NCBI GenBank assembly: GCA_022072055.1
Contig: JAJVIK010000013.1
Coordinates: forward strand, 1-64,000
Source of the DNA: a bacterium
Lineage (GTDB): Bacteria; Hinthialibacterota; Hinthialibacteria; OLB16
Direction of reading: 5' to 3'
DNA length: 64,000 bases
Part shown: positions 1,621-34,423 of the stretch, piece after piece
How positions within the stretch are numbered: position 1 is the stretch's first letter
How the letters are laid out: each line of letters opens with the position of its first letter
Program-made: the position numbers and the translations under genes
Notes under the pieces: model-generated
What the model was told of the DNA's origin: nothing
The model's database searches: none
What the model saw: the letters and a program-made list of their open reading frames with translations, nothing else

Positions 1621-1752
1621 GGGTAACGGATCATAATGCAACTCAACCTTGATCACAGCCCGCCAGGCGGATCAGCGAGCCTTTCAGCGATAAACCGGCT
1701 CCCCCCAGCTTCGCTTCGCGGGCGCGCCAATGCCTCGCCGAAGGCATGATTA

Positions 1753-1781: not shown

Positions 1782-1842
1782 CTCATGTAGCCGCCGGCGC
1801 GTCGCGACGAAGGTTACCAGACTATCCTCGAACGGAGAAACC

Positions 1843-2220: not shown

Positions 2221-2278
2221 TTCCAGGGATTTCGGGCTAACATGGGAACATGGCCGGGGGGGGAAAGCCCTCGGCTGC

Positions 2279-8286: not shown

Positions 8287-9071
8287 ATTCCCACCTCGTT
8301 GGGTTCGCCCCAATTCAGCGGACGCTTCTCACGGAATGCCGCAAGCCCGGCGCGCGCCGAGGCGCTTGCCGCCGCCGCGCGGAATTCAACTTGAGCTCGG
8401 TCCAGTTCCTGGTCCAGGTCGGCCGGTTCGCTGCCGCTGAGAAACCGCTTGGTCCGTGTGATCGCTTCTCCGGAGTTTTCACGGAGGAGCTTCCGAGCGA
8501 AATCCTCCGCCTCCCGGAGCGCGGACTGTTCGGCAAGAAAGTCCACCATCCCCAGGCGATAGGCTTCGGAGGCATCCACTGTCGTCCCGGAGACGGCGAG
8601 GGCTTTAAGCTTCCCGACGGTGAGCCTCCGACGCGCCACCACGGAAACGAGCGCGGGGACCAACCCGATCTTGGTTTCGGATAGGGCAAACCGCGCGGAT
8701 GGCCCCGCGAAGATCAGGTCCGCCGCGAGGACCAGCCCCACCGCACCCCCCATGGCTGGGCCATCCACCGCGCACAAGACCGGGAGCGGAATTCGCTGGA
8801 GATTTCGATAGACAGATGCCAGCCTCGCCGCGAACCGCTCCGCCACCTCGGCATCCCCCAGGTCCACCCGCTTGAGGTCCATCCCCGCCGAGAACGCGGC
8901 CCCATGGGCATGGAGGAGAACCACGCGCGCATCGGGAGTCTGTTCCGCCGCCTGGAGGGCCTCCGCGAGGGCCTCCAGCATCTCAAGGGATATGGCGTTC
9001 CGTCGCTCCGGGTCCTTGAGCGCGATCCGAAGGACTCCGCTCTTCAATTCCGAAACGATTGGCCCGTTCAT
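8283..9071 (-). CDS. enoyl-CoA hydratase/isomerase family protein, LiuC-like
   Basis: A 262-residue crotonase-family enzyme. The oxyanion-hole segments are clear: AFSAGMDLKR (about residues 57-66) and GPAMGGAVGLVLAADL (about 100-115), followed by RFALSETKIGLVPALVS, where the Glu is in the usual catalytic neighbourhood. The last segment resembles methylglutaconyl-CoA hydratases more than short-chain enoyl-CoA hydratases. The start at 9071 gives a typical N-terminus (about five residues before the first strand); the open frame continues upstream without similarity. It is first in a two-gene operon and its stop codon overlaps the GTG start of the carboxylase gene. Together these would do the carboxylation and hydration steps of leucine catabolism. 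No strong Shine-Dalgarno is visible before 9071. Confidence 0.9.
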   Translation of the reverse strand: MNGPIVSELKSGVLRIALKDPERRNAISLEMLEALAEALQAAEQTPDARVVLLHAHGAAFSAGMDLKRVDLGDAEVAERFAARLASVYRNLQRIPLPVLCAVDGPAMGGAVGLVLAADLIFAGPSARFALSETKIGLVPALVSVVARRRLTVGKLKALAVSGTTVDASEAYRLGMVDFLAEQSALREAEDFARKLLRENSGEAITRTKRFLSGSEPADLDQELDRAQVEFRAAAASASARAGLAAFREKRPLNWGEPNEVGM

Positions 9072-18361: not shown

Positions 18362-18598
18362 GGAGGGAGGGACGCACATGCGAGAAGCGTATTTCAATCC
18401 TGGGGTTCAGGGAATCCAGGGAATGGGTGAAATGGACCCAGCCTCCCCCCTCCATGGTTTCCGCTCCTTCACCTGGCTTCCATGACTCAAGGTCTTGGAA
18501 ATCCGGTCTGTTAAGCTTTGATTGCCGGATTGTGGTTCCTCTGCTATTTTAAGACCTTCCAGCCCTTCATCGACCGGGCAGGATTTCAAGAGGTCAGG

Positions 18599-21319
18599 AT
18601 GACCCAGCGCCGCTACCTGCCCCTTCACACGGGACCTGTGTCACCGCCCACAGCGGTCAGCTGGCCCTTTTGGGCCCTCCTGGCCGCGCTCGGCTGCCTT
18701 GGGCATGCAGCCTGGGGGCAGTTTGATCCCGACATCCAGATCTCGCCCACCGATTTGACCTTCGCGCTCTTGTCCGGCCAAAGCTCCACATTGAACCTGG
18801 TGGTTCAGAACACGGCCGGTGGCGGGCCGGACCTCACCTATTCCCTGGTCACTTCGTTGACCGATGGCGGGGAGGTGAAAATCGACACGCTCGGAGCCGA
18901 TGTCCTCTCCGCGACGGGCACGAACCGCTACCGCGGGAACATGTATCAGATCACCAAGCCCGCCCGCTTGAGGTTGGCGGAGTCCTACCTGAATCTTCCG
19001 GCGGGGACACAGACGCTCCATTTCGTTGTGTTTGAGTCGACGACCTGGAACGGAACCTTCACCCTCCTTGACGAGCAAACGATCTCTCGGACCGGAGCGG
19101 GAGCCGCCTTCTACGCCTCCGACCCGATGAACCTGGACCTGGATGTGGGCAAGTTCTACGTGGTCATGACGGGCTGGACCGGCGCGGACTTCGGTTACAG
19201 CTACCAGGAGATGGGCGGGGGTCCGAGTGTCAGTTTCGGGTTCCGCTATGGCGGCTTCCGGTATGACGGGTACCCCATCAACTCAAGCATCACCGGAAGC
19301 TATTCCGGAAGCAACGCCTACTATCAACGTCTCACCACCGACAAGACCTGGCTTTCGGTCGAGGCCGACGAGGGGACCCTTCCCGCCGGGGCAAGCGAAA
19401 CAATTGTGGTCACCGCGAACGCGGCGGGCCTTGCGGGTGGAACCTACATCGGATCGATCGTGGCCGCGAGCAATGATCCGGATGAAGCGACCTCCAACGC
19501 GCTGGTCACCCTCTTTGTGACCCCTCTTCCCACATCGACCCCCACACGGACGGCGACGCACACGCGGACCGAAACTCCCTCCCCCTCGTCGACCGTAACC
19601 AACACCCCGAGCATCACCGAAACTCCCTCGGTTACGGTCACCGCCACGGACTCGGTTACCGATACGCCGACAAGCACTTCAACCCCAACCGATACCGACA
19701 CCTTCACTCAGACTCCGTCAATCACCGAAACGCCGACCCCGACCGACTCGATCACTCCCACTCCGAGCGAGACCAGCACCCACACGCGAACGCCAACCGA
19801 GAGCAGCTCGCCTACGAGGACGGAAACAGATACAAACACGCTCACCCCCACGCCGACCGGAACCGCGACTGAAACCTCCACGGAAAGCGAATCTCCCACT
19901 CCGACCGCCTCTCCCACCGCAACGGACTCGCAAACCCAGGAGCCACCCACTTTCACCGCGACTCAGACCGAGAGTCCCTCACGGACAGCCACGGGAACCT
20001 TCACGGCCTCATCGACCCTTTCCGAAACACCCACATCAACGGGGACTGGCGCCCCGACTGAAACCTCAACCCTCACGCCAACTCTCACCGAAATCCCCAC
20101 GATCACCGAGATTGTCTCTCCGAGCGCAACGGAAACAGGACTCCCAACCACCACCTCGACGCCGATTCCGACCTCCAGCCCCACGGAATCTCCAAGCGTC
20201 AGTCCAAGCCCCACGCCGACAGACTCGCTCGAACCGACCGCGACTGTCACGGCAACCGTGACGACCCTCGGAACGCCGCAATTGGTTGAAGTCGTGCCGG
20301 ATGAGTCTCTCCCCATCGGACTGGGAACGGCAATCTTCGAGTTCGTTTTTTCCCATCGGATGGATACGACAAGGGATCCGGTGGTCACTTTTGGGATGCT
20401 CCCCCCCTACAACATCGGCCTGTCCTTCATTGCCTCTCCCGGATGGATTGACGAGTTCACTTGGCATGGCGGAGTGGAGCTCACGAACCTTGTAGCTGAT
20501 GGGCTTTATACGTTGGGCGTCTCTGGGGCGAGGACCGAGGGGGGAATCACCATCCCGCGCGACACCACGCACCATTTCCTGTTCCTGAAGCAGAGCCCGA
20601 ACGAGCTCACGGACGGACATGTAACCGATATGGCCACAAACGCGCTCGCGATGGAGTGGGAGCGGTCAGACCGTCCGGATGTTTCAGGACACATCATCGC
20701 GAACGCGCCCCAAGCCCAGGGACCGTACGAGGTGGCGGATGCCGCGGGACCGGTTGAAAACGATTTTGTCCATTTCGGATTGAACAGCGACACCCCTTAC
20801 TTCTACAGAATTTACGAAGTCTTCCTGAACAAAGGAAATGGGACCGAGGTTCGCCAGTTGACCAACACCTTTGACGGCAGGACCCTCGCCAAGCTCGCCA
20901 ATGGACGCGCCGAGGCGATCTCCCAAACACAGATGCGAATCACCTGGGAAAGCGAAGACCCTCTCGGAACCAGTGGTTTCCAGGTCCGGCGCGCCGATAA
21001 GCGCGAGTTCCTCGGGGATTGCGGCGAGAACCCGGGAACCATCGTCGCGGATATCCCTCCTTCCGAGCGGATCGCCATCGACCGAAATCTCCGATCCGAC
21101 AGTGTCTACTATTATGACATCTGCATTCTGGACTCCGAGGGAAACACCGCACGACTCGAGAACACGTTTGCCGGAAGGACTCTGTCGATGGATTCGACGC
21201 TGGACGGCAAAGTGGACACCATGGATTTGCTCTCGATCCTCGAGGCCGCGCGCACGGATGAAAACTCACTCGATGTGTTGATTGAGTTTGCGTTGAACTG
21301 GGAAACGCGTATGGAATAG
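18599..21319 (+). CDS. secreted multidomain protein with Thr/Pro/Ser-rich linker and FN3-like domains
   Basis: A 906-residue protein. ATG 18599 follows AGAGG and gives a signal peptide (hydrophobic residues about 22-40 ending AAWGQ); the frame is open to 18518 but less plausible. Residues 45-310 are beta-rich, starting with a BACON/choice-of-anchor-like segment (SPTDLTFALLSGQSS) and ending with another (LPAGASETIVVTANAAGLAGGTY). Residues 310-560 are a Thr/Pro/Ser-rich linker. An Ig-like domain follows (FVFSHRMDTTRDPVVTFG), close to one in the S8 protease at 36.3 kb, then two FN3-like domains (LAMEWERSD, MRITWESED). The end is the shared mini-domain, DGKVDTMDLLSILEAA ... IEFALNW. Probably surface-exposed or secreted; no enzymatic motif seen. 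Convergent with the FadL-like gene. Confidence 0.82.
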   Translation: MTQRRYLPLHTGPVSPPTAVSWPFWALLAALGCLGHAAWGQFDPDIQISPTDLTFALLSGQSSTLNLVVQNTAGGGPDLTYSLVTSLTDGGEVKIDTLGADVLSATGTNRYRGNMYQITKPARLRLAESYLNLPAGTQTLHFVVFESTTWNGTFTLLDEQTISRTGAGAAFYASDPMNLDLDVGKFYVVMTGWTGADFGYSYQEMGGGPSVSFGFRYGGFRYDGYPINSSITGSYSGSNAYYQRLTTDKTWLSVEADEGTLPAGASETIVVTANAAGLAGGTYIGSIVAASNDPDEATSNALVTLFVTPLPTSTPTRTATHTRTETPSPSSTVTNTPSITETPSVTVTATDSVTDTPTSTSTPTDTDTFTQTPSITETPTPTDSITPTPSETSTHTRTPTESSSPTRTETDTNTLTPTPTGTATETSTESESPTPTASPTATDSQTQEPPTFTATQTESPSRTATGTFTASSTLSETPTSTGTGAPTETSTLTPTLTEIPTITEIVSPSATETGLPTTTSTPIPTSSPTESPSVSPSPTPTDSLEPTATVTATVTTLGTPQLVEVVPDESLPIGLGTAIFEFVFSHRMDTTRDPVVTFGMLPPYNIGLSFIASPGWIDEFTWHGGVELTNLVADGLYTLGVSGARTEGGITIPRDTTHHFLFLKQSPNELTDGHVTDMATNALAMEWERSDRPDVSGHIIANAPQAQGPYEVADAAGPVENDFVHFGLNSDTPYFYRIYEVFLNKGNGTEVRQLTNTFDGRTLAKLANGRAEAISQTQMRITWESEDPLGTSGFQVRRADKREFLGDCGENPGTIVADIPPSERIAIDRNLRSDSVYYYDICILDSEGNTARLENTFAGRTLSMDSTLDGKVDTMDLLSILEAARTDENSLDVLIEFALNWETRME
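19530..20275 (+). repeat. low-complexity Thr/Pro/Ser-coding tract
   Basis: About 745 bp of degenerate short repeats, mainly ACN-CCN-ACN-type codons with interspersed GAA and TCN, coding for a mucin-like linker of roughly 250 residues. Units are irregular, so this is not a tandem array with a fixed period and not CRISPR. It shares style with tracts at 35.5-35.8 kb and 46.1-46.2 kb. Confidence 0.9.
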
Positions 21320-21336: not shown

Positions 21337-22533
21337 TCAGAAATAATGAATCATCGAGAGGATGAAGATCGTTCCGGCATCCAGAACATGGTCCACCGCG
21401 AAGTCGATCTGGTATTTCTCGGTCGCGAGGCCCAGTCCGAAGGAAACATGGTTGCGCTCCGGCTGCTGGGGGAAGGCCGCAAGCAGGACCGAGCTGGGGA
21501 ACTCCTCCTTCCCATTGTAATACAGGGCGTTTGAGTCTTCCCGCATCAGGCCGCCGCGAACAAACCACGCCCGCTCCTCCTCGAGCTTGAAAAGATACTC
21601 GCCCCCCAGGTGATACCGCGTCACATCCTCCCGCACAAACGGATCCGAGGGGTTCGAATCAAAATCCGACCAGGTGATGTGATCCACATCGGCCAGGACA
21701 CGGACCCGGTCGTTCGGGTGATAGGCGGTTCCCACTCCGAAGGTCTGCGGGAGATGCGTCGTGAAGACCCCATTCGAGACCTCCTGGCGACTCTTGTAGA
21801 CAGCGCCGAAGGACCATTTCTTGGTGGCTCGCCAGAGCACGCCGAGATTGAAGCTCGGAGACCAATCGGTGAACTCCGTGGTGAACAGAGCGGACCCGTT
21901 CCCTTTGATGGGGCCCGAATCGAATTCGGTGAACTCGTAGTGAAAGCGGTTCATGCGCAGGGTCACGCCGACATGGAACCTCGGTTTGAGATCGGTCGCG
22001 AAGGTCAGCCCGAAGGCGTTGTTGGTGGCCTCGGTCGAGAAGGAGTTAAACCGGCTGCTCCCAAGGTCGCTGTAGTCGTGATCGAAGTCGATGGTGGTGA
22101 GTTGCGAAAGCGCCCAGGTGACCTTCTGACCGGGATGGACATAGCTGAGGAACGAGGGGGTGAGCCACTCATTGTGATCCTCCTCGACCACTGCGCGATT
22201 CAGGTCAAGGCTCGAATTCGGCCGGAACTCATCGCGCTGGTCCAGGGTGTAAGTCCCCTGCCAGGCGATTTCGGGGCGTCGAAGGATCTGCAGACCGGCC
22301 GGATTGAACTCGGCGGCGGTGGCGTCATCTCCCAGGCCCAGGAAGGCTCCGCCCATGGCAAGGGGTCTCGCGCCCGCGCCCGCGAACTCGGCGTCAATGC
22401 CACCGAGCTGCGCCCAGCAAGGAGATGCAACCAGCCAAAGCAACAGCGCTCCGGCGACGTGGCTGCCCTTGCCACGCCCGCTTCCGGTCCGATTCCACCC
22501 CCACCCCGCCGGACGAACCGCGAACCTCTTCAT
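21337..22533 (-). CDS. FadL/OMPP1-like outer-membrane beta-barrel protein
   Basis: A 398-residue outer-membrane protein. It has a signal sequence with a long basic start (hydrophobic core ALLLWLVASPCWA, cleavage near residue 41). The mature protein opens with GGIDAEFAGAGARPLAMGGAFLGLGDDATAAEFNPAGL, shortened here: the AGARPLAMGGAF and NPAGL motifs are the FadL/PorV hatch signature. Amphipathic strands follow and the last residue is Phe after His-Tyr, a usual barrel-assembly end. FadL relatives take up hydrophobic compounds; PorV relatives serve type IX secretion. It is the last gene of the six-gene sigma/CHAT operon, 30 bp after the TPR/FlgT-like gene, which suggests it is the outer-membrane component of that system. 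Confidence 0.85.
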   Translation of the reverse strand: MKRFAVRPAGWGWNRTGSGRGKGSHVAGALLLWLVASPCWAQLGGIDAEFAGAGARPLAMGGAFLGLGDDATAAEFNPAGLQILRRPEIAWQGTYTLDQRDEFRPNSSLDLNRAVVEEDHNEWLTPSFLSYVHPGQKVTWALSQLTTIDFDHDYSDLGSSRFNSFSTEATNNAFGLTFATDLKPRFHVGVTLRMNRFHYEFTEFDSGPIKGNGSALFTTEFTDWSPSFNLGVLWRATKKWSFGAVYKSRQEVSNGVFTTHLPQTFGVGTAYHPNDRVRVLADVDHITWSDFDSNPSDPFVREDVTRYHLGGEYLFKLEEERAWFVRGGLMREDSNALYYNGKEEFPSSVLLAAFPQQPERNHVSFGLGLATEKYQIDFAVDHVLDAGTIFILSMIHYF

Positions 22534-22563
22534 CGAGGACCGCGCTCTTTCAGGCGACCGACA

Positions 22564-24582
22564 TCAGCGCACAATAATCTCATCCCCCTCCATCAAGGGC
22601 TCGGTAAGGTCGGTTGTCTTCAAACTGGATGTTTCGGGGCCCACTCTCTCAAACCACACGGGACCCAAGGGGAGCGGTTGCCCTTTGAGGGCTCTGCCGT
22701 TCTGAGTCTGTATTTCCGGACCGGGGTGGAAGGCGATGGCCTGCATCCCGATGCGGACACCATGCGGCTTGGCCAAATCGGTGGTCGGGGGCTTCACCGC
22801 CACCACATTTCCGGTCGCCAGCGGGTACCTCTGGACAATCTTGAGGGCCATGTCGTGCGCGAGCCGGTCCACGGCATCCGGGTCGCTCTTCTGGGCGGAG
22901 ACCGGCGGTACGCTTGCATCCAGGTCGCCACTCTGGACGCTGACCACATTCACGCTCAAGTGAATGGTGGTGTTCCTGACATCCACGAATCCATCCAAGA
23001 CCAGGTCGGCCGCCGTGAGAGTCTTGTCGGAGACTCGATAGCGGGTGTCGGCGGCGGGGCTTTCCGCGATTCTCCGTTCCAGCATCACCTCATTGAGCTC
23101 ATCGGAGGCCTTGATGCTGAACCTCTTCAGATTATCGAGTTCGGTAATCAATCTTCTCTGAAGCGACCTTCCGAGACCGGGATCTTGGCTGACACCGGCG
23201 ACCTCCACGGGTGGCACGGTGACCGCAAGTCGGTTCTCCAACTCAGTTTCAGGCAGCTCACAATGAATCTGGAGCGGTCGCAAGGATTCCACCTGTCCCA
23301 GGTTGCGAGCCTGGATTTCGATCACATTGGTCCCGGGGCTTAGCGGACCGGCGGCATGACCAAAACTCAGGTCATAAACCGGCCCGGGCTCCGGAATATC
23401 GACCGGCAGGCCATTCACTCGGATATCGCGCACCCCGCTGGCATCCCGCACGCGACCATCAATGTAGACTTCCTCCTGGTAGACCACCTGGCCCGGTTGG
23501 AGGCCGAGCAGGTCGATCCGCGGACCTGTCACCGAGGCCGCGACCAGCCACGAGTTCAGAGGGGATGAAGCCGCCACGCGGACTCGGGTCTCAACCGAAG
23601 GGGCTTTCCCAACTTTGATTTTCGGGCTGAGTTGCAGGAGAGTTTCATTCTGAAATCCATCCGCCAGCTGAAGGTGGACAATCTCATCCTCGCCTTGAAG
23701 CGGCGCTTCCACATCCACTCGGGTGGAGTTCCCCCCGGCAAGCGGCAATCGGGTCCCGGCCACCTCCACGGCGGCAAGGCCATGACGGTCGTAGGCCATG
23801 CCCCGGATCTTCACCCGGTCCTGGCCCAACCGCTCCATTCGCTCCAGACTGAAAACGGGACCGAGTCGGTCGGTCTCAACGCTGACAACCTGGGTCTGGT
23901 GCTGCCCGAGGAGATCATACACGGTGATCGGAATCGAGTTGTTCTCGTTGGGAAGAGGAACCTCAACCTGGAAGTCCAGCGAGCTCTTCGCGCGGTCGAT
24001 CAAGATCGGGCGCTCACCGACCAGGATTCTGTCCACAAACAGGTCATCCGTGGCCTGCCCGCGGATGGTGATGGAGGTCCGGTTGGTGACCAGCCCGGGC
24101 GCGGGATCGGCGATCCGGATCGAGGGCAGGGCCTTGTCGATCGGACTGCGAAGCGCAACTTGGCGGCGCGCCTCATGCAAATAGAACTTGGTCTGGTCGA
24201 AGGCCGCGCTGGCGAGGGATTCCTGGAGCACGGGCGCGGCCTCCCAATAGCGGCCCATTTCATAGAGGACCGCGCCGAGCTCGGCCTTGGGAAAGTACTC
24301 CTGGAAGCGCACGCCATAGGTTCGGGCGCGGGCGCTTTCATCCGGTCGGAACTTGATCGCCTCGCGGAGATCGGCCTCCGCGCCCTGGAGATCACCGGCG
24401 TCAAACTTGGTGATCGCCCGGTTGTAGTAGTCCCACCAGTCTCCACGGAAGATCTTGCTCGCAATCGCGCTCTTGCGTCGCTCGCGACGGGGAACCTCAT
24501 CCCCGGCTGGTTGCGCGAACGCCGGATCCGCCGTCGCGAAAACAAGTGTGACTAAAAGGGCAAGGCCTATTCTGACTCTCAT
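22564..24582 (-). CDS. periplasmic TPR and Ig-like protein with FlgT-like C-terminus
   Basis: A 672-residue protein with a standard signal peptide (cleavage near residue 23, ADPAFAQ). Residues about 48-150 form TPR-like helices (YYNRAITKFDAGDLQGAEADL, shortened; AVLYEMGRYWEAAPVLQESL). Residues 160-420 contain three or four Ig-like units with the pattern of 'adverse-directed' bacterial Ig domains (TIRGQATDDLFVDRILVG; VKIRGMAYDRHGLAAVEVAG; VYIDGRVRDASGVRDIRVNG). Residues 450-600 resemble FlgO/CsgG-type folds (LAVTVPPVEVAG), and the last 70 residues (GVRIGMQAIAFHPG, GDEIIVR) resemble the FlgT C-terminal domain. The ATG overlaps the stop of the upstream gene (ATGA), so translation is coupled. It probably bridges periplasm and outer membrane in the sigma/CHAT system. 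Confidence 0.8.
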   Translation of the reverse strand: MRVRIGLALLVTLVFATADPAFAQPAGDEVPRRERRKSAIASKIFRGDWWDYYNRAITKFDAGDLQGAEADLREAIKFRPDESARARTYGVRFQEYFPKAELGAVLYEMGRYWEAAPVLQESLASAAFDQTKFYLHEARRQVALRSPIDKALPSIRIADPAPGLVTNRTSITIRGQATDDLFVDRILVGERPILIDRAKSSLDFQVEVPLPNENNSIPITVYDLLGQHQTQVVSVETDRLGPVFSLERMERLGQDRVKIRGMAYDRHGLAAVEVAGTRLPLAGGNSTRVDVEAPLQGEDEIVHLQLADGFQNETLLQLSPKIKVGKAPSVETRVRVAASSPLNSWLVAASVTGPRIDLLGLQPGQVVYQEEVYIDGRVRDASGVRDIRVNGLPVDIPEPGPVYDLSFGHAAGPLSPGTNVIEIQARNLGQVESLRPLQIHCELPETELENRLAVTVPPVEVAGVSQDPGLGRSLQRRLITELDNLKRFSIKASDELNEVMLERRIAESPAADTRYRVSDKTLTAADLVLDGFVDVRNTTIHLSVNVVSVQSGDLDASVPPVSAQKSDPDAVDRLAHDMALKIVQRYPLATGNVVAVKPPTTDLAKPHGVRIGMQAIAFHPGPEIQTQNGRALKGQPLPLGPVWFERVGPETSSLKTTDLTEPLMEGDEIIVR

Positions 24583-27500
24583 CGGCTTCCCTCAAAGCTC
24601 ATCCACTCGGAAGCGGCCCACCAAAGGATGCTTTCGGCCCTTCCCGAAAGCGCGCCGGACTCACCCTGGTTTCCGGCGGCTTCAAGGGCCTCGAGGAGCA
24701 GCGCGCCATCGATCCGCGCTCCCGATGGGGAAAGGACCATCGAATCGGTTACATCGAGATTGCCTCGCGCATCCCGAGCGTGATATCGGAGCACGGTGAA
24801 CCCGGGAAGATCCGAGTGAACCTGCCCGCGATAGAGGTCTGGGTCCGCCGAATCCCGTTCCAACGGGATGGCTTCCCGCCACCCATCCGGATGGAAAACT
24901 TCCACCGTGGCCTCAACCGGCAGCCCGAAGGGAGGGTCGGTGACCCTGGCGGAAACCTCAAGAGTGGAGCCCACGGCAACATTTCGGGTGGGAGTCACCA
25001 GCTCAATCTTGGGCGGAATGGAATCCCGGATCAGCGCGACAGGCGGAGTGAAAGCAGAAAGCACGGGCAGGGTCTTATAGGGTTCATCGCCGACTCGATT
25101 CGCCGAGGGCTTCTGAATCCCCGACCCCACATTGGCGCCTCGCGTAGTGAAACGGTCCCGCGCGGAGATGAACGCCTCGCCGAACCCTAACGGGCTACGG
25201 ATCGCTTCCAGGAAGTAATCGGAGAACCCACCTGTTCCGAACTCCACTCTTCTCTGTCCTTGCCGACAGGAAAAGACATGCGCCCCGGGGAAATCCTCCA
25301 GCATGCTCTCGTAATTCCCCGCGTACGGGGAGTCGATCACGATGAGTGGTTCGGCCCCATGCTTGGTGGAGCCGGCGACCAGCTGGGCGAGCTGTCCCGC
25401 CGAAAGGACTTTCTGGTCGGGAAGGAGAAACTCCACCGTGTTATTCGCCACCCGCGCGTTGCCCAGCAGATAGAAGAGGACAAATCGACTCGTTCTAATC
25501 TTGTTTTCGACAATGTCGAGGAGATTCTCGAACGTGGGCGTACTGTCCACGATATCCCCGAGTTCCCCACCGGCGGATAAGACATGCTGAACCTGATCCC
25601 CAACTTGACCGCCGAGGAAGGTCCTATGGATATCATTGGCTGTGAGTTCGATCGCGCCTTGTGTCCGCGCGTTAGGCGGGGCGCCCACCAGGGTGATGAT
25701 TTCGCCCAGGTCGGGTTCCACATTCCCCTTCCCGGCGCTGGGAGCATAGACCGGGATGGGGAACCGCGGCGAGGCTCCGCCGACTCCATCCGGCGAGCCG
25801 GGCCAAGTGGCGCGGAAGTACCAGTATTCACCAGGGGGATTGTCATCGGGCACGGCGAACTCGGCGGTGAACTCTCCGGTCGCCGCCACAACGCCCGTGG
25901 CGGAAACAATGGCTCCATCCGGTCGGCGAGCCTCGACGAAGATCCCTGTCGGGTTCGCCAAGGCGCGCTCGATGCCGAGTTGCCCGCGGATGCTGAGCCG
26001 CGCGCCCGAAAGCTCCGAATCTCTTGAAAGGGCAATCCGAGTGGCGCGACGGGGAATGCGATCCCCACGGATCGAAGTCGTGTTCGGAAGCACGGAAACC
26101 AGGAATGAAACCGGAACCTCCAGGACCCCATCGCTGAGGCTGGCAGTGAGGGCATAGACCCCCGCAAAGCTGTTGGCGGCCACCGCAAGAGTCAGCACGG
26201 CGGCACCCGGCACGGGCAGGAGCGTGGGGGAGGCTTCCAAGGTGAAACCCGCTGAAGCTTGTATTGAAACCTGGATCGACCTTCCACGGGCGATTTCGGA
26301 GGATAGCGACAGCAGGAGTTCCGCCGAATCTCCCGGATGCAGGCGAACTTCCACATCGGGCGCGTTCACAAGCCAGTCGCCCTCGCCGGGATTCGAAGAA
26401 ACCGGGCCGATAGCGGCGGGTGAAGGAAGTTGGGAACCCAGGACCGCCGCGCGGATTCGATACAGATAAGCAGTTCCTGGCTCAACCGAGAGATCGGTCC
26501 AGGTTGTGAGGGTGGAGGGCAGGGGAACGCTGGTCAATCGCTGCCAACCCTCATGGGGCGGCGTGTCCTCGGAAGGGTCTCGCCGTCGCTCAATAATCCA
26601 CCCTCGGACCGTATCCGGCGGCGCGCCTTCCACGCTCCACGACAGGGTGATCCCCACCGTGGCCTGGACCACCTGGGCGGAGATCATCGCCGTGGGAACC
26701 TTGTCCAACTTGGGCGTAGTGATGGGGTTGTCGAACAGGTACATCCTGCTGCTCGGCGAGGCGACCACCGCGAAGCGGTCGGTTGTTGGGTTGAGAGTCA
26801 ACCCCACCGAACCGGATCCCCCAAGGAAGGGGAGTTCAAACCGTCGCGTGACGGAATCGCTCTCAAGGCTCCAGGCAAGAAGTTCGTAGAGGGTCCCGTT
26901 GGTGTTCAAGGTCAAATAGTAGAGGAGGCCCCGAGCCGGATCCGCCGCATAGTCCAAAACGCCGCTAATGTTTGGAATGGGGACTTGGCTGGACGGCAAA
27001 AGAGGGTCCGAATCCAAATCGAAAGCAAAGACCACCTCATCATTCCCCCGTTCATGCACGGCCAGGACGCGGTTCCGAGGGAGATCGAGATAGAGATGAT
27101 TCAAAGTGGATGGAGAGAGAGACGAATCCGGAAATGAGAATGCTCGAACGAACCCCACGGACACATCCAAGGCTCGGAGCTTTGGCGCGGACTTGAAGGG
27201 GAAACGAGGTGTGGCAATCCAGAGCGTTTCGGCCACGAGGTCGTGAGCCAATTCGATATTCTGTTCAATCCCCTGGATGGGGGCAATCACGGTGTCCGTG
27301 AGAGACGCAAGTTGGGGATCGCTCACAGCGAGTGATCCTCCATCGATTTGAGCCACCACCTGCCCCAAACCGGGATTTGTCGGGGAAGCCGCATAGAGGG
27401 TGTATATCAGATTCCTGCTCGCATCCAGTATCAGCGCTTCGGCCGCGGTGGGAAGTTGCCCCAGCGGCTGGTAACCGTTTGTTTCAAGGATTTCGGGATG

Positions 27501-28901
27501 TCCCATCGGTTGACGTCCCACGAAGAGACGGGCGCGGGCCTCATCGGGAAACAACCCAGCTCTCGGGCGGGCGCCCAGACCGGGTCGCCGGGAGAAGAGT
27601 CTCGGCCGGTCCGAGGTCGCGCCGGGGATCAAATCAGAGACCAAGTAAAGTCGTCCTTCCTTCGAGAGCGCGGCAAACAGGTTCCCCACCCTGTCCACCG
27701 CGAGGTCAAAGGGGGTGACCTCCACATCCAGTTGAGTGCTGACCCGAGTCGCTGTGGGCGAAAGGATGTACAACGCGCCGATATCGGTGCTGGCGACAAA
27801 CACATCCGTGCTCAGTGAACTCTTGAGAAAAACAGTCGACTCCGAAGCGTCCCGGATGTATCCGGTTGGAGTCGCCTGCCCGATTTGGAAGACCGCGATG
27901 CTCTTTTCCGGGAGCGATTCTTTTCCGTTTCCAACCCAAAACCGGTCACTCTGAACAAATCCTAGGGCGCCAATCGACTGGAAATCCGGCGAACCCTCGA
28001 CAAAGGGTGAGGCGGATGCGAGCGACTCTCCCGAAAGAAGCGGAAGCATTCCCTGATGGCTGCTGTCCGGAGCGACGGCCACCCACTCGCCGTCCGGTGA
28101 TATCGCCAGGGAATGGGTGGTGAAGGTCCCCGGGAAATTGGAGGAGCGAGCAACCGTGGCGCCCGTGACCGCATCGTATGCGGCCACAAACCCCTCCGGG
28201 TCGGTCTCTTCATTCATGGCCCCGATGCGATACGGGGAATAGAGAACCAGGAGACGCTCCCTGGATGCATCGAAGACCATGTCCTGGGGGAGCGCGACCC
28301 ACCGCGGCATCCCGATTGGAACCGAGGTCACTATCCGCGTGTCGGCCTCGAGGATGCTCAGCCGGTAGGTGGTCTCACCCATGTGAGGTGGACTGAGTCC
28401 GATCATGCGCCGCCCGTCGGGATCCTTGTCAAAATCAAAGAAGCCGACCGGAACGCGAACCGTGGGGCTGCTCGAAAAGGTCTCAAGGTTGAAGATTTGA
28501 ACAAAATGGGGGTTCCTCGGATTAGCTGATCCGAATGGAAGATTGGAATCATACGCGATAAACAGTTCATTGGTCTTGCTGGATGCCTGAATCCCGCGAA
28601 GGTAAACGCCGCTTGTGGTCTGGAGAACGGATTCCGAGGCAAGAGCCTTGGTGGCGGCATCAAAACTGAGAACCTTATAATAGCGGTTCGGGTCGGGATC
28701 GCCGCTCCGCACCACGGTAAGGAGCCGGTTGGTCCTCTCGTTCAAAGTAAGATGGGTCTCAGTGACATTGCTCCATTCTCCGCCAGGCGCGAGTTTCACG
28801 CCATCCACGGCTTGGCCGAGCGGCTCCGCGATGGAGGCGGCGCTCAGCTGGAGAACCGAAAACAGCCAGAAAGCCGCTGACCCGGCGCGCCGACTCCGCA
28901 T
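24579..28901 (-). CDS. secreted beta-propeller/FN3 protein with degenerate C13/caspase-like domain
   Basis: A 1440-residue protein; AAAGGAGG lies six bases before ATG 28901 and a signal peptide follows (residues 1-25). The first ~700 residues are propeller-like repeats (SLAISPDGEWVAVAPDSS, LALDVSVG-type strands). An FN3-like domain (GITLSWSVEGAPPDTVRGW) and Ig-like units follow. Residues about 1061-1260 look like a C13/legumain-type caspase-fold domain. The strand before the catalytic His ends FYLLGNA instead of DHG, and the strand before the catalytic Cys reads LIVIDSPYAGNY where active members have D-x-CYSG. Both catalytic residues are therefore missing. A Big-like domain and the shared mini-domain (ARIDGALLLEALEAA ... 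ILWWAASEW) close the protein. Third from the end of the operon; probably a pseudoenzyme sensor or scaffold. Confidence 0.82.
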   Translation of the reverse strand: MRSRRAGSAAFWLFSVLQLSAASIAEPLGQAVDGVKLAPGGEWSNVTETHLTLNERTNRLLTVVRSGDPDPNRYYKVLSFDAATKALASESVLQTTSGVYLRGIQASSKTNELFIAYDSNLPFGSANPRNPHFVQIFNLETFSSSPTVRVPVGFFDFDKDPDGRRMIGLSPPHMGETTYRLSILEADTRIVTSVPIGMPRWVALPQDMVFDASRERLLVLYSPYRIGAMNEETDPEGFVAAYDAVTGATVARSSNFPGTFTTHSLAISPDGEWVAVAPDSSHQGMLPLLSGESLASASPFVEGSPDFQSIGALGFVQSDRFWVGNGKESLPEKSIAVFQIGQATPTGYIRDASESTVFLKSSLSTDVFVASTDIGALYILSPTATRVSTQLDVEVTPFDLAVDRVGNLFAALSKEGRLYLVSDLIPGATSDRPRLFSRRPGLGARPRAGLFPDEARARLFVGRQPMGHPEILETNGYQPLGQLPTAAEALILDASRNLIYTLYAASPTNPGLGQVVAQIDGGSLAVSDPQLASLTDTVIAPIQGIEQNIELAHDLVAETLWIATPRFPFKSAPKLRALDVSVGFVRAFSFPDSSLSPSTLNHLYLDLPRNRVLAVHERGNDEVVFAFDLDSDPLLPSSQVPIPNISGVLDYAADPARGLLYYLTLNTNGTLYELLAWSLESDSVTRRFELPFLGGSGSVGLTLNPTTDRFAVVASPSSRMYLFDNPITTPKLDKVPTAMISAQVVQATVGITLSWSVEGAPPDTVRGWIIERRRDPSEDTPPHEGWQRLTSVPLPSTLTTWTDLSVEPGTAYLYRIRAAVLGSQLPSPAAIGPVSSNPGEGDWLVNAPDVEVRLHPGDSAELLLSLSSEIARGRSIQVSIQASAGFTLEASPTLLPVPGAAVLTLAVAANSFAGVYALTASLSDGVLEVPVSFLVSVLPNTTSIRGDRIPRRATRIALSRDSELSGARLSIRGQLGIERALANPTGIFVEARRPDGAIVSATGVVAATGEFTAEFAVPDDNPPGEYWYFRATWPGSPDGVGGASPRFPIPVYAPSAGKGNVEPDLGEIITLVGAPPNARTQGAIELTANDIHRTFLGGQVGDQVQHVLSAGGELGDIVDSTPTFENLLDIVENKIRTSRFVLFYLLGNARVANNTVEFLLPDQKVLSAGQLAQLVAGSTKHGAEPLIVIDSPYAGNYESMLEDFPGAHVFSCRQGQRRVEFGTGGFSDYFLEAIRSPLGFGEAFISARDRFTTRGANVGSGIQKPSANRVGDEPYKTLPVLSAFTPPVALIRDSIPPKIELVTPTRNVAVGSTLEVSARVTDPPFGLPVEATVEVFHPDGWREAIPLERDSADPDLYRGQVHSDLPGFTVLRYHARDARGNLDVTDSMVLSPSGARIDGALLLEALEAAGNQGESGALSGRAESILWWAASEWMSFEGSR

Positions 28902-28927
28902 GGGTGTCCTCCTTTCCGCTGAAGCTT

Positions 28928-31900
28928 TCAGCGTTTCTCCCGCGCGCGCATCCCATCTTCGGGAGGAATCTCACTTGAGACAATTTCACACAAAGCGCTG
29001 TCTTCGCCCAGCTGGGAAACTCTTAGGACACAGATCGGTTCACTCGGTCCGAGCGTATCCTCAAAGCGAGGGTTGGGGGCGGCCGGGAAGACCTCAAAGA
29101 GCTGATCGGGCCGGACACCCAGCTTGCTTCCGATATTCAGTCCCGGCTTCCCTGCCCCGTTCAGCTGAACCTTGCCCTGAAGCGGGAACCTACCCCGCAC
29201 CCCCGCCCCGAGATCGGAAACAAGCGATGCCATCAGAGCTGTCGGGTCGGTTCCCTCTTTTCGTGTGGAGGCCAGCAGGATTCCCTTCTCCGCATCGATG
29301 GCCTGAAGCTCCACTACGACCCGATCCTGAGTCCAGGAGACCCGCCCCGAAACGAGAATCCGCGCGGCGAGCAGCCCGCCAAGCCTGGCGGAATTCCTCG
29401 GGTCCGCGGCATCCGAAGCCGCCAGGCGCTGTTCCCTCATGACTTCCACGATTCGCTCGCGTGTGACCAAAGTGAACCCCATGCCGGCGAGAAGACTCTC
29501 CGCCTCTTTGGGCAAAGCCTGCCCGAGCGCGCTGGACGAATCCGGGGCGCCCCCCGATTCATCGAAACCAAGGACCGCGAGACTCAGAGGCCGCGAGGTC
29601 CATCGGTCCGCCTCCGCCAGGCGCGCGGGATTGGCCTTGATGGCTTCCTCCAGATTGGTGAGCGCCTTATCCGTGGATTCCACCCGCTCCTTCTCTTCAA
29701 CGCGGGCCATGGCTGAACGGATCCCTTGCAGGCGGCTCTTCGCCAACGCGTTCTCCGGGTCCTTTCGGAGGATCTCGCTGAAGGCGGCCTCGGCGGCTGA
29801 GTAGTTCTGCTCACCTTCGTACTGATCCGCTTTCTCCATCAGGAGCGCAAGGGCGCGTTGGTGATGACGCCCCATCGGATCCAAGGTCCTCTCCCCGACA
29901 ATCCCGCAGAGAGCGAGAACAACGACAATGACACCGACCAGAATGGCCTTCCTTCCCGGTTTCGCGGCTTGGAAAGCTGGAATCGAAGCCTCCACCGAGG
30001 TTCGCGTCGCTCCGGGGACGCTCGTTTCTCGCGTTCCCGGTTTTCGGATTTCCGGGCCTGGCTCCCACGGGGCCGGTTCCGCGAGTCGGCGCCTGTGGGC
30101 CGGGAAGGGGTCATCATGCTCCTTGCCTGGAATCAGCTCCTCCTCGCCGAAGCGAAGACGACGGCTTTCGGGAAGCGCTTCATAGGCATTCGCCCCGAGA
30201 AGCACTTCGCCCGCGCCCGCGCGCTGCTGGAGACGCACCGCGGCGCTCATGGCGCCTCCGGAGATCTTTCCTCCCTCCTCGATCACCACTCGGCCCGCGT
30301 AGACCCCCATCCTGAAGCAGCGGTATTCCTCGGGTGACTTGGCCCGCGAATTCCATTTTGAGCTCGCCGCGAACAATCCCTCCGCGAACAGGTCGGCATC
30401 CACCGCGCTGGCAAATGCGAGGATCGAACCATCTCCCGCGAAATTGACCAGACAGTCATCGAGCTCCGACCCGGCTTGTGCGCACCCCTCTCGGAGCATC
30501 CCCTTGATCTGATCCTCCACGGCGCGGGTGGCGTTGGGCCCCAGGCCCTGCCGCTGTTCCAGCGAAGCCACAATCTCCGAATAGCGCGCGAGGTCCACGG
30601 ACACAATCACCCGTTTCTCCTCGCGTCGCTCATTCATTTCCCGACCTTGAATCGGCAACGAAGTCACGGTGCCCGACTCAGTTCGCATGGTGCCGAAAAT
30701 CCCCGAATCCGGGTCGCCATAGAGGACATATTGAGCCCAGGTCAGGCTCTTCCCGGGGTTCTGACGGCGATGTTCGTGGCGCGCCTCATGGAGCGCCTTG
30801 CCGACCGGAAGCCCGGCGATGATGTTGCGGTAGAAGAGCCGCGCGAAGTCCTTGCTGCCGGTGTCGAGAAGTTCCGACAGCACCCCCACGTAATGCGTGC
30901 ACCCGGCGAGCAGGAAGGCGTTGGCGAGGCCGAAGCTCCACCCTTCTCCACTCTTCTTCCAGGCCTCCGTGGCCCCGCTGTGGCAGGCGTTGTTGAAAAC
31001 CATCAGGGGGCCCGGCTTTTCGCCTCGGATGAGGTTTTCCAGGTCCCCCGCGGTCAGCTCTCCATCCTGAAGAATCCACGCGCTGTCATCGGGACTTTCG
31101 GCGTGGTGTTCGGCATGGCCGCAGTAATGAACGATATCGAAGCGGCTCAAACGCTCTTTGACCGCCTCCACCCCCACATCCCGGCTGACCAGCTCAAACT
31201 GCACGCGCTTGTCGGTCCGGCAAAGACTGTAGAGGTGCTCTCCCTCAAGCGCGGCGGCGGGCAGATTTCCACATGGGTCCGCGATCACCAGAAAGGAAAG
31301 GGATGCCAGCGGCGCGGGTCTTCGAAGCGGGCGCGCGCTCTGACTGGTTCGCGCGAGACGTCCCATGGAGAATCGGCAGCAAAGAAAATCGGAGCCATCA
31401 TGGGCGAGCTCCCAAGGGATATGCACACAGGAGTCATCCAGCTTGAGCACCAGAAACTCGGCTGAGCTCTGGCCGATCTTCCGGCGAATTTCCTCGGGAA
31501 AGAGCTTCTCAAACAGCAGCATCCCCAGCTGCTCCAAAGTCAGGCCCGCATCCCGGACGGATCCATGCAGGTTGGCCATGCGGATGGTTTCCTGGAGTCG
31601 CTGGGACAATTCCTCGATTTCAGTGAGAACATGCGGATGGGTCAGATAGGGGATGAGGGTGAGGTCCTCCTCTTCCTCCTCGCGCCAGGAGATCCGGCTT
31701 TCGTGCTCGCTCCACAAGATTTCGAGAACAACCTTTTCACCACGAGACCCCGGGGCGGGGACCCCGACCGGGGTGGCCCAATTCACACGATAGGCCACCG
31801 AGGCGCTGCTTTTCCCTCGAACCCGAAGGTTCTCTATCGGATTGCAGCGCGCTTGATAGTAGGGGTCGATGGACTCGAACACCGATTGGCTGATCAGAAT

Positions 31901-32365
31901 CTCGTCCGCCTGGGCCTCCTCCGCCAGTCGCTTGCCGACATTCACCACATCCCCATTGACATCCTGGCTCTCCTCCAGAAGGAGACCCCAGTCGATTCCG
32001 ATCTTGAGTCGTCGAGGGTCGGCATCCAACGCCCGCGAGTCGCGGAGCTCGCGCTGCATTTCAAAAGCCGCCTGAAGGGCTTCCACGGGACGGTCGAAGA
32101 CCGACAACCAACCATCACCTAGCGCCTTGACCACCCGCCCGCCATACAAGTCCACGGCCTCCGCGACAACCCGGCGGGTCATCTCGATCCGCACGCGCCC
32201 CTCCACATCTCCGTGAAGGTCGGTGAAGGAGGTCGATCCGGCCATGTCCGCGAACATCACGCAGCGCGGGACTCGGAACTCGTTGAGTCGCTCTTTGTAC
32301 TCCGCGACCTTCCGGATCAGTTCCTCCACGGACTCAGACTGAGGGGGAGTGGGGTGTGTGGCCAC
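28928..32365 (-). CDS. class III cyclase - CHAT protease - cyclase - TM - TPR - CsgG/FlgO fusion
   Basis: A 1145-residue multidomain protein. GTG 32365 is chosen because GAGGAGG lies exactly seven bases upstream and the preceding gene stops 2 bp before; the frame is open to 32626 only as a shadow. Domains: class III nucleotidyl cyclase 34-190, with metal Asp in FADMAGST, second Asp in LGDGWL, and N142/R146 in the VNVGKRL motif; CHAT caspase-like domain about 300-560 with H417 (CGHAEH) and C461 (NNACHSG) intact; second cyclase-like domain 585-750 with both Asp (SVDLARYS, FAGDGS) but no Asn; one TM helix 807-821; TPR-like helices 835-915; CsgG/FlgO-like domain 925-1090 (LSLAVLGFDES, RILVSGRVS). 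Cyclase and CHAT parts should be cytoplasmic and the CsgG-like part periplasmic. A signalling protease is inferred. Confidence 0.88.
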   Translation of the reverse strand: MATHPTPPQSESVEELIRKVAEYKERLNEFRVPRCVMFADMAGSTSFTDLHGDVEGRVRIEMTRRVVAEAVDLYGGRVVKALGDGWLSVFDRPVEALQAAFEMQRELRDSRALDADPRRLKIGIDWGLLLEESQDVNGDVVNVGKRLAEEAQADEILISQSVFESIDPYYQARCNPIENLRVRGKSSASVAYRVNWATPVGVPAPGSRGEKVVLEILWSEHESRISWREEEEEDLTLIPYLTHPHVLTEIEELSQRLQETIRMANLHGSVRDAGLTLEQLGMLLFEKLFPEEIRRKIGQSSAEFLVLKLDDSCVHIPWELAHDGSDFLCCRFSMGRLARTSQSARPLRRPAPLASLSFLVIADPCGNLPAAALEGEHLYSLCRTDKRVQFELVSRDVGVEAVKERLSRFDIVHYCGHAEHHAESPDDSAWILQDGELTAGDLENLIRGEKPGPLMVFNNACHSGATEAWKKSGEGWSFGLANAFLLAGCTHYVGVLSELLDTGSKDFARLFYRNIIAGLPVGKALHEARHEHRRQNPGKSLTWAQYVLYGDPDSGIFGTMRTESGTVTSLPIQGREMNERREEKRVIVSVDLARYSEIVASLEQRQGLGPNATRAVEDQIKGMLREGCAQAGSELDDCLVNFAGDGSILAFASAVDADLFAEGLFAASSKWNSRAKSPEEYRCFRMGVYAGRVVIEEGGKISGGAMSAAVRLQQRAGAGEVLLGANAYEALPESRRLRFGEEELIPGKEHDDPFPAHRRRLAEPAPWEPGPEIRKPGTRETSVPGATRTSVEASIPAFQAAKPGRKAILVGVIVVVLALCGIVGERTLDPMGRHHQRALALLMEKADQYEGEQNYSAAEAAFSEILRKDPENALAKSRLQGIRSAMARVEEKERVESTDKALTNLEEAIKANPARLAEADRWTSRPLSLAVLGFDESGGAPDSSSALGQALPKEAESLLAGMGFTLVTRERIVEVMREQRLAASDAADPRNSARLGGLLAARILVSGRVSWTQDRVVVELQAIDAEKGILLASTRKEGTDPTALMASLVSDLGAGVRGRFPLQGKVQLNGAGKPGLNIGSKLGVRPDQLFEVFPAAPNPRFEDTLGPSEPICVLRVSQLGEDSALCEIVSSEIPPEDGMRAREKR

Positions 32366-32367
32366 GG

Positions 32368-33675
32368 TCAAACCTCCTCGGACGCGGATTCGGAAATCAA
32401 CGGGGCGATGGCGGCGCGCCAAACCTCGGTGTTCGAGTCTCGAAGCGCATCCTCCCCACCGGCGCCTTCGGAGCAACTCCGCAGGTGCTCCGCGAGCAGG
32501 CTTCCGGCGGACAAACCGAACGGGTCTTCCTTGGAGGGGGTGATCGAGCCGAAAACGCGGGTCGCCTCGCGGTAGGCCCCCAAACGGAGGTGGTGGTACC
32601 CCGCAAGCGCGATCCACCCCTCGCATGACGGCGGAGCGAGCCGATCCGCTTCACGCTCGGCCTCATCGGGAAGGGTCCCTGTCCGAATCGTGGCCAGGGT
32701 GGCCTCGGCCAGGGCGCGCCACTCGGGGGGCAAATCCAAGAGCGCCGGGTGACTCTCGCCACTCAGCGCCGCAAGTTCGGGCAGTTCCTCCCCACGCGGG
32801 CAACAGTCCCGTATCCCCCGCCAAACCGGTTGGAGGGCGAGCGCGCCGCTTTCCAGGAGCTGCGCCCGCGAACGGGTGACCGCGGCCGGCATGAGCACCA
32901 TGCCCTCGACCTTGGTCAGCCCGGAAAGCGCCTCGATAAAGGCCGTGGCTTTGGAGGCGAGGCGTTCCAGTTTGGGCCTTGCGCCCATCGCGCGCGCGAA
33001 GCAGTCGACCGCATGCCGGAAAGATCCTTCCATGGCGCGGAAGACACCCGCCGAAATCCAATCTTGCGGGGCGAACTCGATCACCGCCGTCCGAAATCCC
33101 ACCCCCGTGGGGTCCTGGCTGTGACGGATCGCCCAGACCCCGTTCTGAGGGATTCTCACTCCGGTTTCCACAATCTCACCATCCGCCGCGTGGACACTTC
33201 GGAGATTCCCTCCATCCCATATCTCAAAATATCCCGCGGAAGTCCCTCGCCAGTCCGCGCGAACCCGCAGCCTGAGTCGATCCCCGTTCTCACCGGCGGT
33301 CAGTTGAATCTGGGAACTCGTCCCATGGAAGGCGCAATCCAGCGTGATCTGACGAGGAATGCAGATTGAGGCCCGCGCTTGCGTGACTCGCTTCACAGTC
33401 TCAACAGCCGCCGCAAGCCCCCTTTCGAGCTCCAGGTCATCGAGACTGAACACCCGGTAGACCCCCTGGCAGAGGCCCAATCGGAAGCGGCTCGATAGCG
33501 GGAAGGGGAGCGATGTCTCCTCTCCCCCCACCGGCTCTCCCTGGTTTTCGAGCGTCTTGAGAACCTCACCGGCCTCGGGGTCGGAGGCGATCTTTTCCCG
33601 GAGGGCCTGGCGGTCCTTTTCACCGAGGGCTCCGGTTGCGATCGACGCCAGCAGGTTCGTCATCTCAGGGTCCAT
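32368..33675 (-). CDS. putative anti-sigma/sensor protein of the CHAT operon
   Basis: A 435-residue soluble protein with no TM segment or Cys-zinc motif. The first 45 residues (LLASIATGALGEKDRQALREKI in part; ASDPEAGEVLKTLE) resemble the helical start of anti-sigma factors of the ECF type that count residues per layer (GALG-x-D-x3-L...DPE). A beta-sandwich-like middle (IQLTAGENGDRLRLRVRADW) and an alpha-helical C-terminal half with TPR-like pairs (IALAGYHHLRLGAYREATRVFGSI) follow. It sits between the ECF sigma gene (94 bp) and the cyclase-CHAT gene (2 bp). Position and N-terminus suggest it controls the sigma factor or links it to the CHAT protein. I cannot assign it to a family. Confidence 0.7.
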   Translation of the reverse strand: MDPEMTNLLASIATGALGEKDRQALREKIASDPEAGEVLKTLENQGEPVGGEETSLPFPLSSRFRLGLCQGVYRVFSLDDLELERGLAAAVETVKRVTQARASICIPRQITLDCAFHGTSSQIQLTAGENGDRLRLRVRADWRGTSAGYFEIWDGGNLRSVHAADGEIVETGVRIPQNGVWAIRHSQDPTGVGFRTAVIEFAPQDWISAGVFRAMEGSFRHAVDCFARAMGARPKLERLASKATAFIEALSGLTKVEGMVLMPAAVTRSRAQLLESGALALQPVWRGIRDCCPRGEELPELAALSGESHPALLDLPPEWRALAEATLATIRTGTLPDEAEREADRLAPPSCEGWIALAGYHHLRLGAYREATRVFGSITPSKEDPFGLSAGSLLAEHLRSCSEGAGGEDALRDSNTEVWRAAIAPLISESASEEV

Positions 33676-33769
33676 TGTCTTTTCCAGCTTCCTTAAGAGG
33701 CGACTCTTCGCCCTCTGAATGGGATTACGAGATCACCCGAGGGCAAACTTACAAACTTTTTTCCCTTCC

Positions 33770-34423
33770 TCAGCTGAAATCCCCGACCTCGATCCCCGCC
33801 CGCGCGAGACAGGCGCGCAATTCAGGCCGAAGCCTCGAAAACCGGGTGTTGGCGTTATTCTCAGAAATTCCTAGGGTTTCCGCGATATCTTTGAAAGAGA
33901 CCCCGCGCGCACGCAGCTCGACAATTCGACAGTCCAGCGGTTTAAGACGTCCCGCGCGCTGGAGACGTTCCAGGCAGCCTTTGAGCGCCTCCACCAGCTC
34001 CCGGTTCCGGAACCAGTCGGCGGGGGTGGTTGGACCTGAGCTCTGGGGCGCGGTTCCTTCCGGGGAATCGGATGGCGCCTCGGCGGCCTCCACCTTTCTG
34101 CGGGTGTAACTGCTCCAACTGGACCGAAGGTAATCCAGGCATCGCGAGGTGGTGATCACCGAAAGGTAAGCCGAAAGGTTGCTGCGAGTCGGATCCCAGG
34201 CCCTGAGGAGTTGAAAATCGTTGCGGATCAGGTGGTACGAAATCTCTTGGACAAGGTCCTGGGCATCCATCTGGGAGAGACGGTGCGCGTGGATGCGCGC
34301 GGTGATGAGGGGGCCAAAGACCTTCCAAAACTCCGGCCACCCCGATTTGGGGTCGCGGAGCAGGAGGTCTCGAAGCTCCTCGTCGGAGGGTCCTTCCCTT
34401 GGAGTTGGATCGCCCATTTCCAC
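33770..34423 (-). CDS. ECF-type RNA polymerase sigma factor
   Basis: A 217-residue sigma-70 family protein. Region 2 is visible at about residues 28-100 (ARIHAHRLSQMDAQDLVQEI; DPTRSNLSAYLSVITTSRC, the latter typical of ECF groups from Planctomycetes-like bacteria). Region 4 is at about 160-205 with the helix-turn-helix RGVSFKDIAETLGISENNA. Regions 1 and 3 are missing, as in all ECF factors. The first codon at 34423 is GTG; ATG 34417 two codons later is an equal candidate. It heads the operon that runs to 21337. The upstream gap shares a 15-bp palindrome with the divergent carbonic anhydrase gene. No GGAAC-type ECF promoter was found upstream, so autoregulation is not shown. Confidence 0.92.
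   Translation of the reverse strand: MEMGDPTPREGPSDEELRDLLLRDPKSGWPEFWKVFGPLITARIHAHRLSQMDAQDLVQEISYHLIRNDFQLLRAWDPTRSNLSAYLSVITTSRCLDYLRSSWSSYTRRKVEAAEAPSDSPEGTAPQSSGPTTPADWFRNRELVEALKGCLERLQRAGRLKPLDCRIVELRARGVSFKDIAETLGISENNANTRFSRLRPELRACLARAGIEVGDFS

Follow-up and report, generated by a model that had tools for sequence, protein, structure and literature searches.

The operon at positions 21337-34423 of the window, the 64,000-nucleotide stretch of DNA that we analysed, probably encodes a trans-envelope relay in which a membrane receptor carrying a CHAT protease domain would cut a soluble anti-sigma factor after an invariant arginine and so free an ECF sigma factor. This reading builds on observations of gene content, order and recurrence, of predicted topology and intact catalytic residues, and of the invariant arginine and its position. 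The six open reading frames lie on the minus strand, as do all features of the operon located below, and are separated in order of transcription by gaps of 94, 2, 26, −4 and 30 bp; these coordinates and gaps are exactly those that an earlier note on this DNA had given, and its domain labels (sigma factor, cyclase, CHAT, CsgG, TPR/Ig and FadL) were backed by Pfam and NCBIfam, in which the proteins of 435 and 1440 aa matched no notable family.

The first gene (33770-34423, GTG start) encodes a 217-aa protein that matches sigma region 2 (Pfam Sigma70_r2, E 3.6e-8) and TIGR02937 (7.8e-13) and has sigma-70 regions 2 and 4 only, the arrangement of an ECF sigma factor. Paralogues and orthologues of this protein, P0006, stand beside other CHAT genes. 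The second gene (32368-33675) encodes a 435-aa protein, P0005, which is predicted to be cytosolic and which we propose as the anti-sigma factor and CHAT substrate. Neither of these two proteins has a signal peptide or a transmembrane helix. The earlier note had no name for the 435-aa gene, which is the key part of the operon: it fills the anti-sigma position, and its product is the likely substrate of the protease. It gave no Pfam match, and no PDB match by sequence or by fold, Csx30 included. The AlphaFold2 (AF2) model of the protein (mean pLDDT 82) shows three helices at the N terminus, then a beta domain, and helices in the C-terminal half. The proposed anti-sigma domain (33547-33669) comprises helices 3-14, 19-29 and 33-43, which were modelled with pLDDT 60-69.

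The third gene (28928-32365) encodes a fusion of 1145 aa with the order cyclase-CHAT-cyclase-TM-TPR-CsgG; the GTG at 32365 was taken as its start, and homologues align there. Pfam identified Guanylate_cyc (4e-7), CHAT (PF12770, 6e-30) and CsgG (1e-5) in addition to TPR. In class III cyclases, a pair of aspartates binds metal, a Lys/Asp pair sets specificity and an Asn/Arg pair stabilizes the transition state. The first cyclase domain (31805-32263) has all six residues of the adenylyl type, D40, K80, D84, D135, N142 and R146. The second cyclase-like domain (30116-30493; profile alignment, 76 bits) departs from this type, with the lysine changed to asparagine and the D and N positions lost, and is probably inactive, as judged by eye from the loss of three of the six catalytic residues. 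The CHAT domain (30713-31525) combines its profile match with the His/Cys dyad of a clan CD peptidase: catalytic His417 (31115-31117) is His in 97/97 aligned CHAT domains, and catalytic Cys461 (30983-30985) is Cys in 94/96. The nearest solved CHAT structures are SAVED-CHAT 8tl0 and the TPR-CHAT of Craspase, all of them distant. Hydropathy gives a single transmembrane helix at residues 807-825 (29891-29947), and a helix lies in the same place, between CHAT and CsgG, in 45 of 50 CHAT-CsgG relatives. The CsgG/FlgO-like domain (29336-29581) follows, and its match is stronger in a relative.

The remaining products, of 1440, 672 and 398 aa, all begin with signal peptides, as read by eye. Together with the single transmembrane helix of the fusion, these signal peptides suggest that CHAT lies in the cytosol with the anti-sigma factor, while the CsgG part would face the periplasm, on the same side as the FlgT-like and FadL proteins. 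The 672-aa protein (22564-24582) contains TPR, an Ig-like region (Glucodextran_B) and a weak LptE/CsgG match, and its FlgT-like family neighbours CHAT-CsgG genes in relatives. The 398-aa protein (21337-22533) is a FadL/PorV-type outer-membrane barrel (Pfam Toluene_X/FadL, E 1.6e-17), and FadL genes are likewise neighbours of CHAT-CsgG in relatives. The 1440-aa secreted protein (24579-28901) is specific to the lineage: among 14 genomes of the phylum, a homologue was found only in the sister genome, G002. The C13-like peptidase domain that the earlier note had seen in this protein could not be sustained, because neither Pfam nor PDB gave a match even at E 10 and the catalytic His and Cys are absent; what exists is a resemblance to C13 motifs (LLGNA and IDSPYAG), partly kept in one relative. 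Its C-terminus carries a tag common to about 20 proteins of the window genome, a count in which its own score is not independent, since the protein was in the seed of the search. This dockerin-like tag, DGxxDxxDLLxxL...W, is also present on two large secreted proteins that flank the operon (18518-21319 and 35346-40916), one of them a subtilase, and suggests a dedicated sorting or anchoring signal.

The core of the operon is repeated within the genome from which the window comes (5.86 Mb in 32 contigs). Seven of its eight CHAT domains lie beside a member of the 435-aa family and a P0006-like sigma factor, and all seven members of the 435-aa family, a small one, found in this genome adjoin a CHAT, indicating that the sigma/P0005/CHAT triad is a repeated unit. 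The other six triad CHATs are part of bigger proteins of the CHAT-Ser/Thr kinase-WD40 type, a composition taken from Pfam scans of two of the six. Each has one transmembrane helix at about residue 860-905, which in the two scanned proteins falls between the kinase and the propellers. The triad of the window is the copy whose CHAT shares a polypeptide with cyclases and CsgG, with FlgT-like and FadL genes after it. A member of the family of the window genome has been deposited as Candidatus Omnitrophota. Two variants were seen. At L049 in G002 (8238-9029, minus strand; the same as L075), a gene for an Ion_trans voltage-gated-type channel precedes cyclase-CHAT-CsgG and replaces sigma and anti-sigma. 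At L055 in G004 (833-4372, minus strand), sequence that aligns as a protein kinase replaces the cyclase before CHAT-CsgG, with FlgT-like and FadL genes adjoining.

To examine recurrence more widely, the cyclase-CHAT alignment was scanned against 84,980 species genomes, which gave 80 loci, mainly from assemblies labelled as Desulfobacterota, Nitrospirota, Omnitrophota and Myxococcota, together with the complete genome of Desulfonema magnum. Genes at these loci commonly run from the sigma factor through a zinc-finger protein of about 240 aa and then cyclase-CHAT-TM-TPR-CsgG to FadL and FlgT-like; in some relatives the FadL/FlgT-like pair lies upstream. By the terms of the earlier note, homologues that did not co-occur elsewhere would have refuted its reading; they do recur as a unit in distant genomes. 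Of the six genes, sigma, anti-sigma and CHAT form the core, FlgT-like and FadL genes are partners of it, and the gene for the 1440-aa protein was added in a restricted lineage. The upstream sequence was long enough to judge for 76 CHAT open reading frames. The gene immediately upstream, in the same orientation, is of the zinc-finger or P0005 type in 47 of them, and sigma and anti-sigma are both present in 43. The upstream anti-sigma gene and CHAT often overlap or stand a few bases apart. The open reading frames at these other loci were called by a simple longest-ORF method, which is not dependable for start sites and for a few small ORFs. An anti-sigma neighbour is missing for 24 of the 76, which suggests that some CHATs act otherwise. 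Within three genes of CHAT we found 50 sigma and 59 anti-sigma homologues among 428 genes; beyond five genes, these families account for 0 of 312. FlgT-like and FadL neighbours occur at 24/36 and 19/36 cyclase-CHAT-CsgG loci, respectively, compared with only 4/48 for CHATs without CsgG.

Because the 80 loci had been chosen by CHAT, we sampled a second time with a profile of the anti-sigma factor. At E 1e-20, an E-value that for our own profiles refers to small databases, 11 genomes among the 297 in the phylum to which D. magnum belongs had a match, as did 4 among the 198 in the phylum of a Nitrospirota genome. This patchy distribution resembles that of an accessory system prone to loss or relocation. 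Among the 19 copies so sampled, CHAT is the next gene in 18, and a sigma gene lies within four genes upstream in all 19. Ten of these loci had served as profile seeds; of the nine non-seed loci, eight have CHAT. The single exception is a genome with exactly one anti-sigma and one CHAT, placed on different contigs. The closed genome of Desulfonema magnum 4be13 contains four anti-sigmas and four CHATs, paired one to one in four triads; one zinc-finger anti-sigma and its neighbouring CHAT lie near 603-606 kb of NZ_CP061800.

In a tree of CHAT domains, those of the window's family that are associated with P0005 group together in a single supported clade of 13 rows; three of these rows, all from G002, lack a P0005 partner. 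The zinc-finger label is scattered over the tree with at least 12 changes, implying that loss or swap of the partner is frequent or that some partners were missed on short contigs. Mantel comparisons over ten P0005-type triads showed sigma and CHAT distances to be uncorrelated (r −0.04); the sole correlation, a weak one, was between sigma and P0005 (r 0.35, p 0.017). A search for a promoter motif in 42 regions upstream of sigma genes, by bipartite and k-mer methods, found none, and the bipartite motifs were no better than those of shuffles. Several loci depart from the simple triad. At L120, L125, L116 and L122, one sigma/anti-sigma pair is followed by two to four tandem CHAT genes, and several of the extra tandem CHATs form a separate divergent clade. 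At L178, a sigma/anti-sigma pair has no CHAT beside it; the genes that come next encode a secreted beta-helix protein and a protein of the FGE-sulfatase type, which are possible members of the regulon. L152, on a contig titled Klebsiella pneumoniae, has a CHAT triad nearly identical to that of L143 from a deltaproteobacterial MAG; public contig titles are no taxonomic proof, and this label is probably wrong.

The middle gene of the relatives encodes a protein with an H-x3-C-x2-C N-terminal domain, as in the zinc-type class I anti-sigmas, and matches the solved anti-sigmas RsiW (E 2e-5) and DdvA. None of 48 such zinc-finger proteins has a transmembrane helix, and neither has any of 11 P0005-type proteins. 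As judged from sequence, the product of this gene is a soluble cytosolic anti-sigma factor. One arginine is invariant in 47/47 zinc-finger anti-sigmas. It lies within an otherwise unconserved linker, in which most neighbouring positions have an identity of 0.2-0.4, and the residue after it is mostly small (G in 28, S in 7). In the AF2 model of one member, helices extend to residue 132 and a beta sandwich begins at residue 147; the only segment with pLDDT below 50 is 138-143, and the invariant arginine is residue 143. Zinc-finger copies outside the alignment also carry the site, in the form [hydrophobic]-R-[GSDA]. This pattern leads us to predict that CHAT cuts the anti-sigma factor after the invariant arginine and thereby frees the sigma factor, although the arginine could instead be a structural or binding residue.

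In the window, the 435-aa gene occupies the slot of the zinc-finger anti-sigma gene. Its proposed cleavage site is Arg268 (32872-32874), in the motif LxPxPxxR[GSA], which is present in 10/10 family members with S, G or A as the next residue. In the AF2 model, Arg268 falls in the loop 264-269, which is ordered rather than disordered (pLDDT about 80). Profile comparison of the two families gave a weak alignment, with 11% probability, in the N-terminal helices only, and the arginine motif lies after the beta domain in the 435-aa protein and before it in the zinc-finger proteins. The equivalence of the families is thus one of position and motif, and from these and the one weak alignment the 435-aa protein may be taken as a functional equivalent of the anti-sigma factor.

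Combining these results, we infer that sigma is bound and its inhibitor cleaved, and we infer likewise which way the signal runs and what it is. A signal would pass from the FadL-type barrel and the FlgT-like periplasmic protein to the periplasmic TPR-CsgG part of the receptor, which would sense the state of the envelope and switch on CHAT. The activated CHAT would then cut the soluble anti-sigma factor encoded by the neighbouring gene, the zinc-finger protein of about 240 aa in most relatives and presumably the 435-aa protein in the lineage of the window, after the invariant arginine. The freed ECF sigma factor would redirect transcription, perhaps once the remainder of the anti-sigma factor has been degraded further, which happens with RseA and has been proposed for Csx30. 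The trans-envelope sensing system supposed in the earlier note thus stands in that the genes span the envelope, the protease is a plausible output and the sigma factor is dedicated; it needs revision in that receptor and protease are one membrane protein. An immune or cell-death role, a theme that the earlier note raised, is possible.

The same parts could be arranged differently. An unlikely arrangement, in our view, makes the CHAT receptor a target or effector that obeys the sigma factor instead of activating it: sigma and anti-sigma would respond to some other cue and switch on a CHAT protease with different substrates, for instance as part of an antiphage or cell-death response. CHAT proteases do act in immune systems, among them the nearest solved relatives named above, an antiphage island is under the M. 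xanthus ECF sigma DdvS (PMC12288465), and one sigma/anti-sigma pair is located apart from its CHAT. Against this, the receptor has the topology of an inner-membrane protein whose domains reach into the periplasm, it has partners in the outer membrane, and a pure target model leaves the invariant arginine in a disordered linker of the anti-sigma factor unexplained. PADLOC, moreover, assigned the operon to no antiphage family, giving only a generic cyclase match for the fusion and generic kinase matches for a paralogue.

A release of sigma by binding or phosphorylation, through the kinase, the cyclase or an allosteric contact with CHAT as a scaffold and with no proteolysis, seems to us improbable. 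Cyclase or kinase domains often accompany CHAT, and neighbouring kinases are thought to regulate many ECFs (PMC8999054). In the triads that the anti-sigma profile picked out, however, CHAT is the piece of the receptor that stays the same, and its His and Cys are retained in nearly all, whereas cyclase and kinase can replace each other or be missing and so are more likely modulators than core. We give least weight, as very unlikely, to an outer-membrane assembly or transport module made of FadL, FlgT and CsgG with its own regulator, in which CHAT would mature an envelope component; the frequency of FlgT-like and FadL genes at cyclase-CHAT-CsgG loci would suit it, but the predicted topology puts CHAT on the cytosolic side of the membrane, and CHAT-sigma-anti-sigma triads exist without FadL or FlgT. 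The proteolytic relay remains the reading that we favour, although the CHATs that lack an anti-sigma neighbour, the uncorrelated sigma and CHAT distances, the failure to find a promoter motif, and the weak alignment and ordered arginine loop of the 435-aa protein count against it.

Envelope signals are known to reach ECF sigma factors through regulated proteolysis, as in RseA/DegS, or through an outer-membrane receptor, as in the FecR type. In the RseA layout the anti-sigma factor spans the membrane; here the layout is inverted, with the protease spanning the membrane and the anti-sigma factor soluble. RseA is also discussed in the report on Craspase (CASP) of type III-E CRISPR, in which CASP-sigma is inhibited by Csx30 and the TPR-CHAT protein Csx29 cuts this inhibitor (PMC10028731). 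As in Craspase, a CHAT protease, a proposed sigma-factor inhibitor and an ECF sigma are encoded together in our operon. In contrast to Craspase, the protease is a membrane receptor with cyclase and envelope domains (and a kinase in paralogues), the 435-aa protein is without a PDB match, and the proposed cut is after arginine. None of the six genes is Cas7-11, Csx30 or Csx31, and there is no crRNA, so that the system would work by analogy with the output arm of Craspase and not as a member of it. In the CalpL/CalpT/CalpS system of type III CRISPR, a protease also cuts an anti-sigma factor and acts on an ECF sigma (PMC11417357), but CalpL is a Lon-type protease with a SAVED sensor of cyclic oligoadenylate and is bound to CRISPR. 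DdvS/DdvA of Myxococcus xanthus shares with the zinc-finger triads an ECF sigma, a zinc-finger anti-sigma and a CHAT domain; DdvA is PDB entry 8rlz, and the CHAT domain-containing chain of 8rot has at its N terminus the same sequence, which matches the anti-sigma profile. In DdvA, however, anti-sigma and CHAT form one polypeptide, while here they are on separate open reading frames, with a separate membrane receptor, which sets the triads apart from DdvA. The ECF54 group has CHAT proteins in the genetic context of the ECF sigma and is described as being without an anti-sigma factor (PMC8999054), unlike the loci here. Among open-licence papers, a search for CHAT domains with ECF sigma or anti-sigma factors returned only the Csx29 paper, and a passing mention elsewhere is possible.

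The logic of CHAT, anti-sigma and sigma is thus already known from Craspase and DdvA, and its Lon version from CalpL/T/S. The apparent novelty lies in a CHAT receptor that is a protein of its own, crosses the membrane and faces the envelope, and that is paired with a soluble anti-sigma factor, in several phyla and with a candidate cut site. We suggest tentatively, and with somewhat less than even confidence, that these genes represent a widespread undescribed class of transmembrane CHAT receptors with swappable sensors (TPR-CsgG/FlgT/FadL or WD40 propellers), swappable cytosolic modules (cyclase or kinase) and dedicated Arg-cut anti-sigmas, of which the CRISPR-linked CHAT/Csx30/sigma of Desulfonema would be a captured branch. 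The analysis proposes a role for CHAT outside CRISPR and cell death, as receptor proteases for sigma factors; it names a candidate substrate and cut site, and offers a role for the orphan 435-aa family and for the FlgT and FadL neighbours. If true, it may also point to the source of the Craspase output module in an older signalling system.
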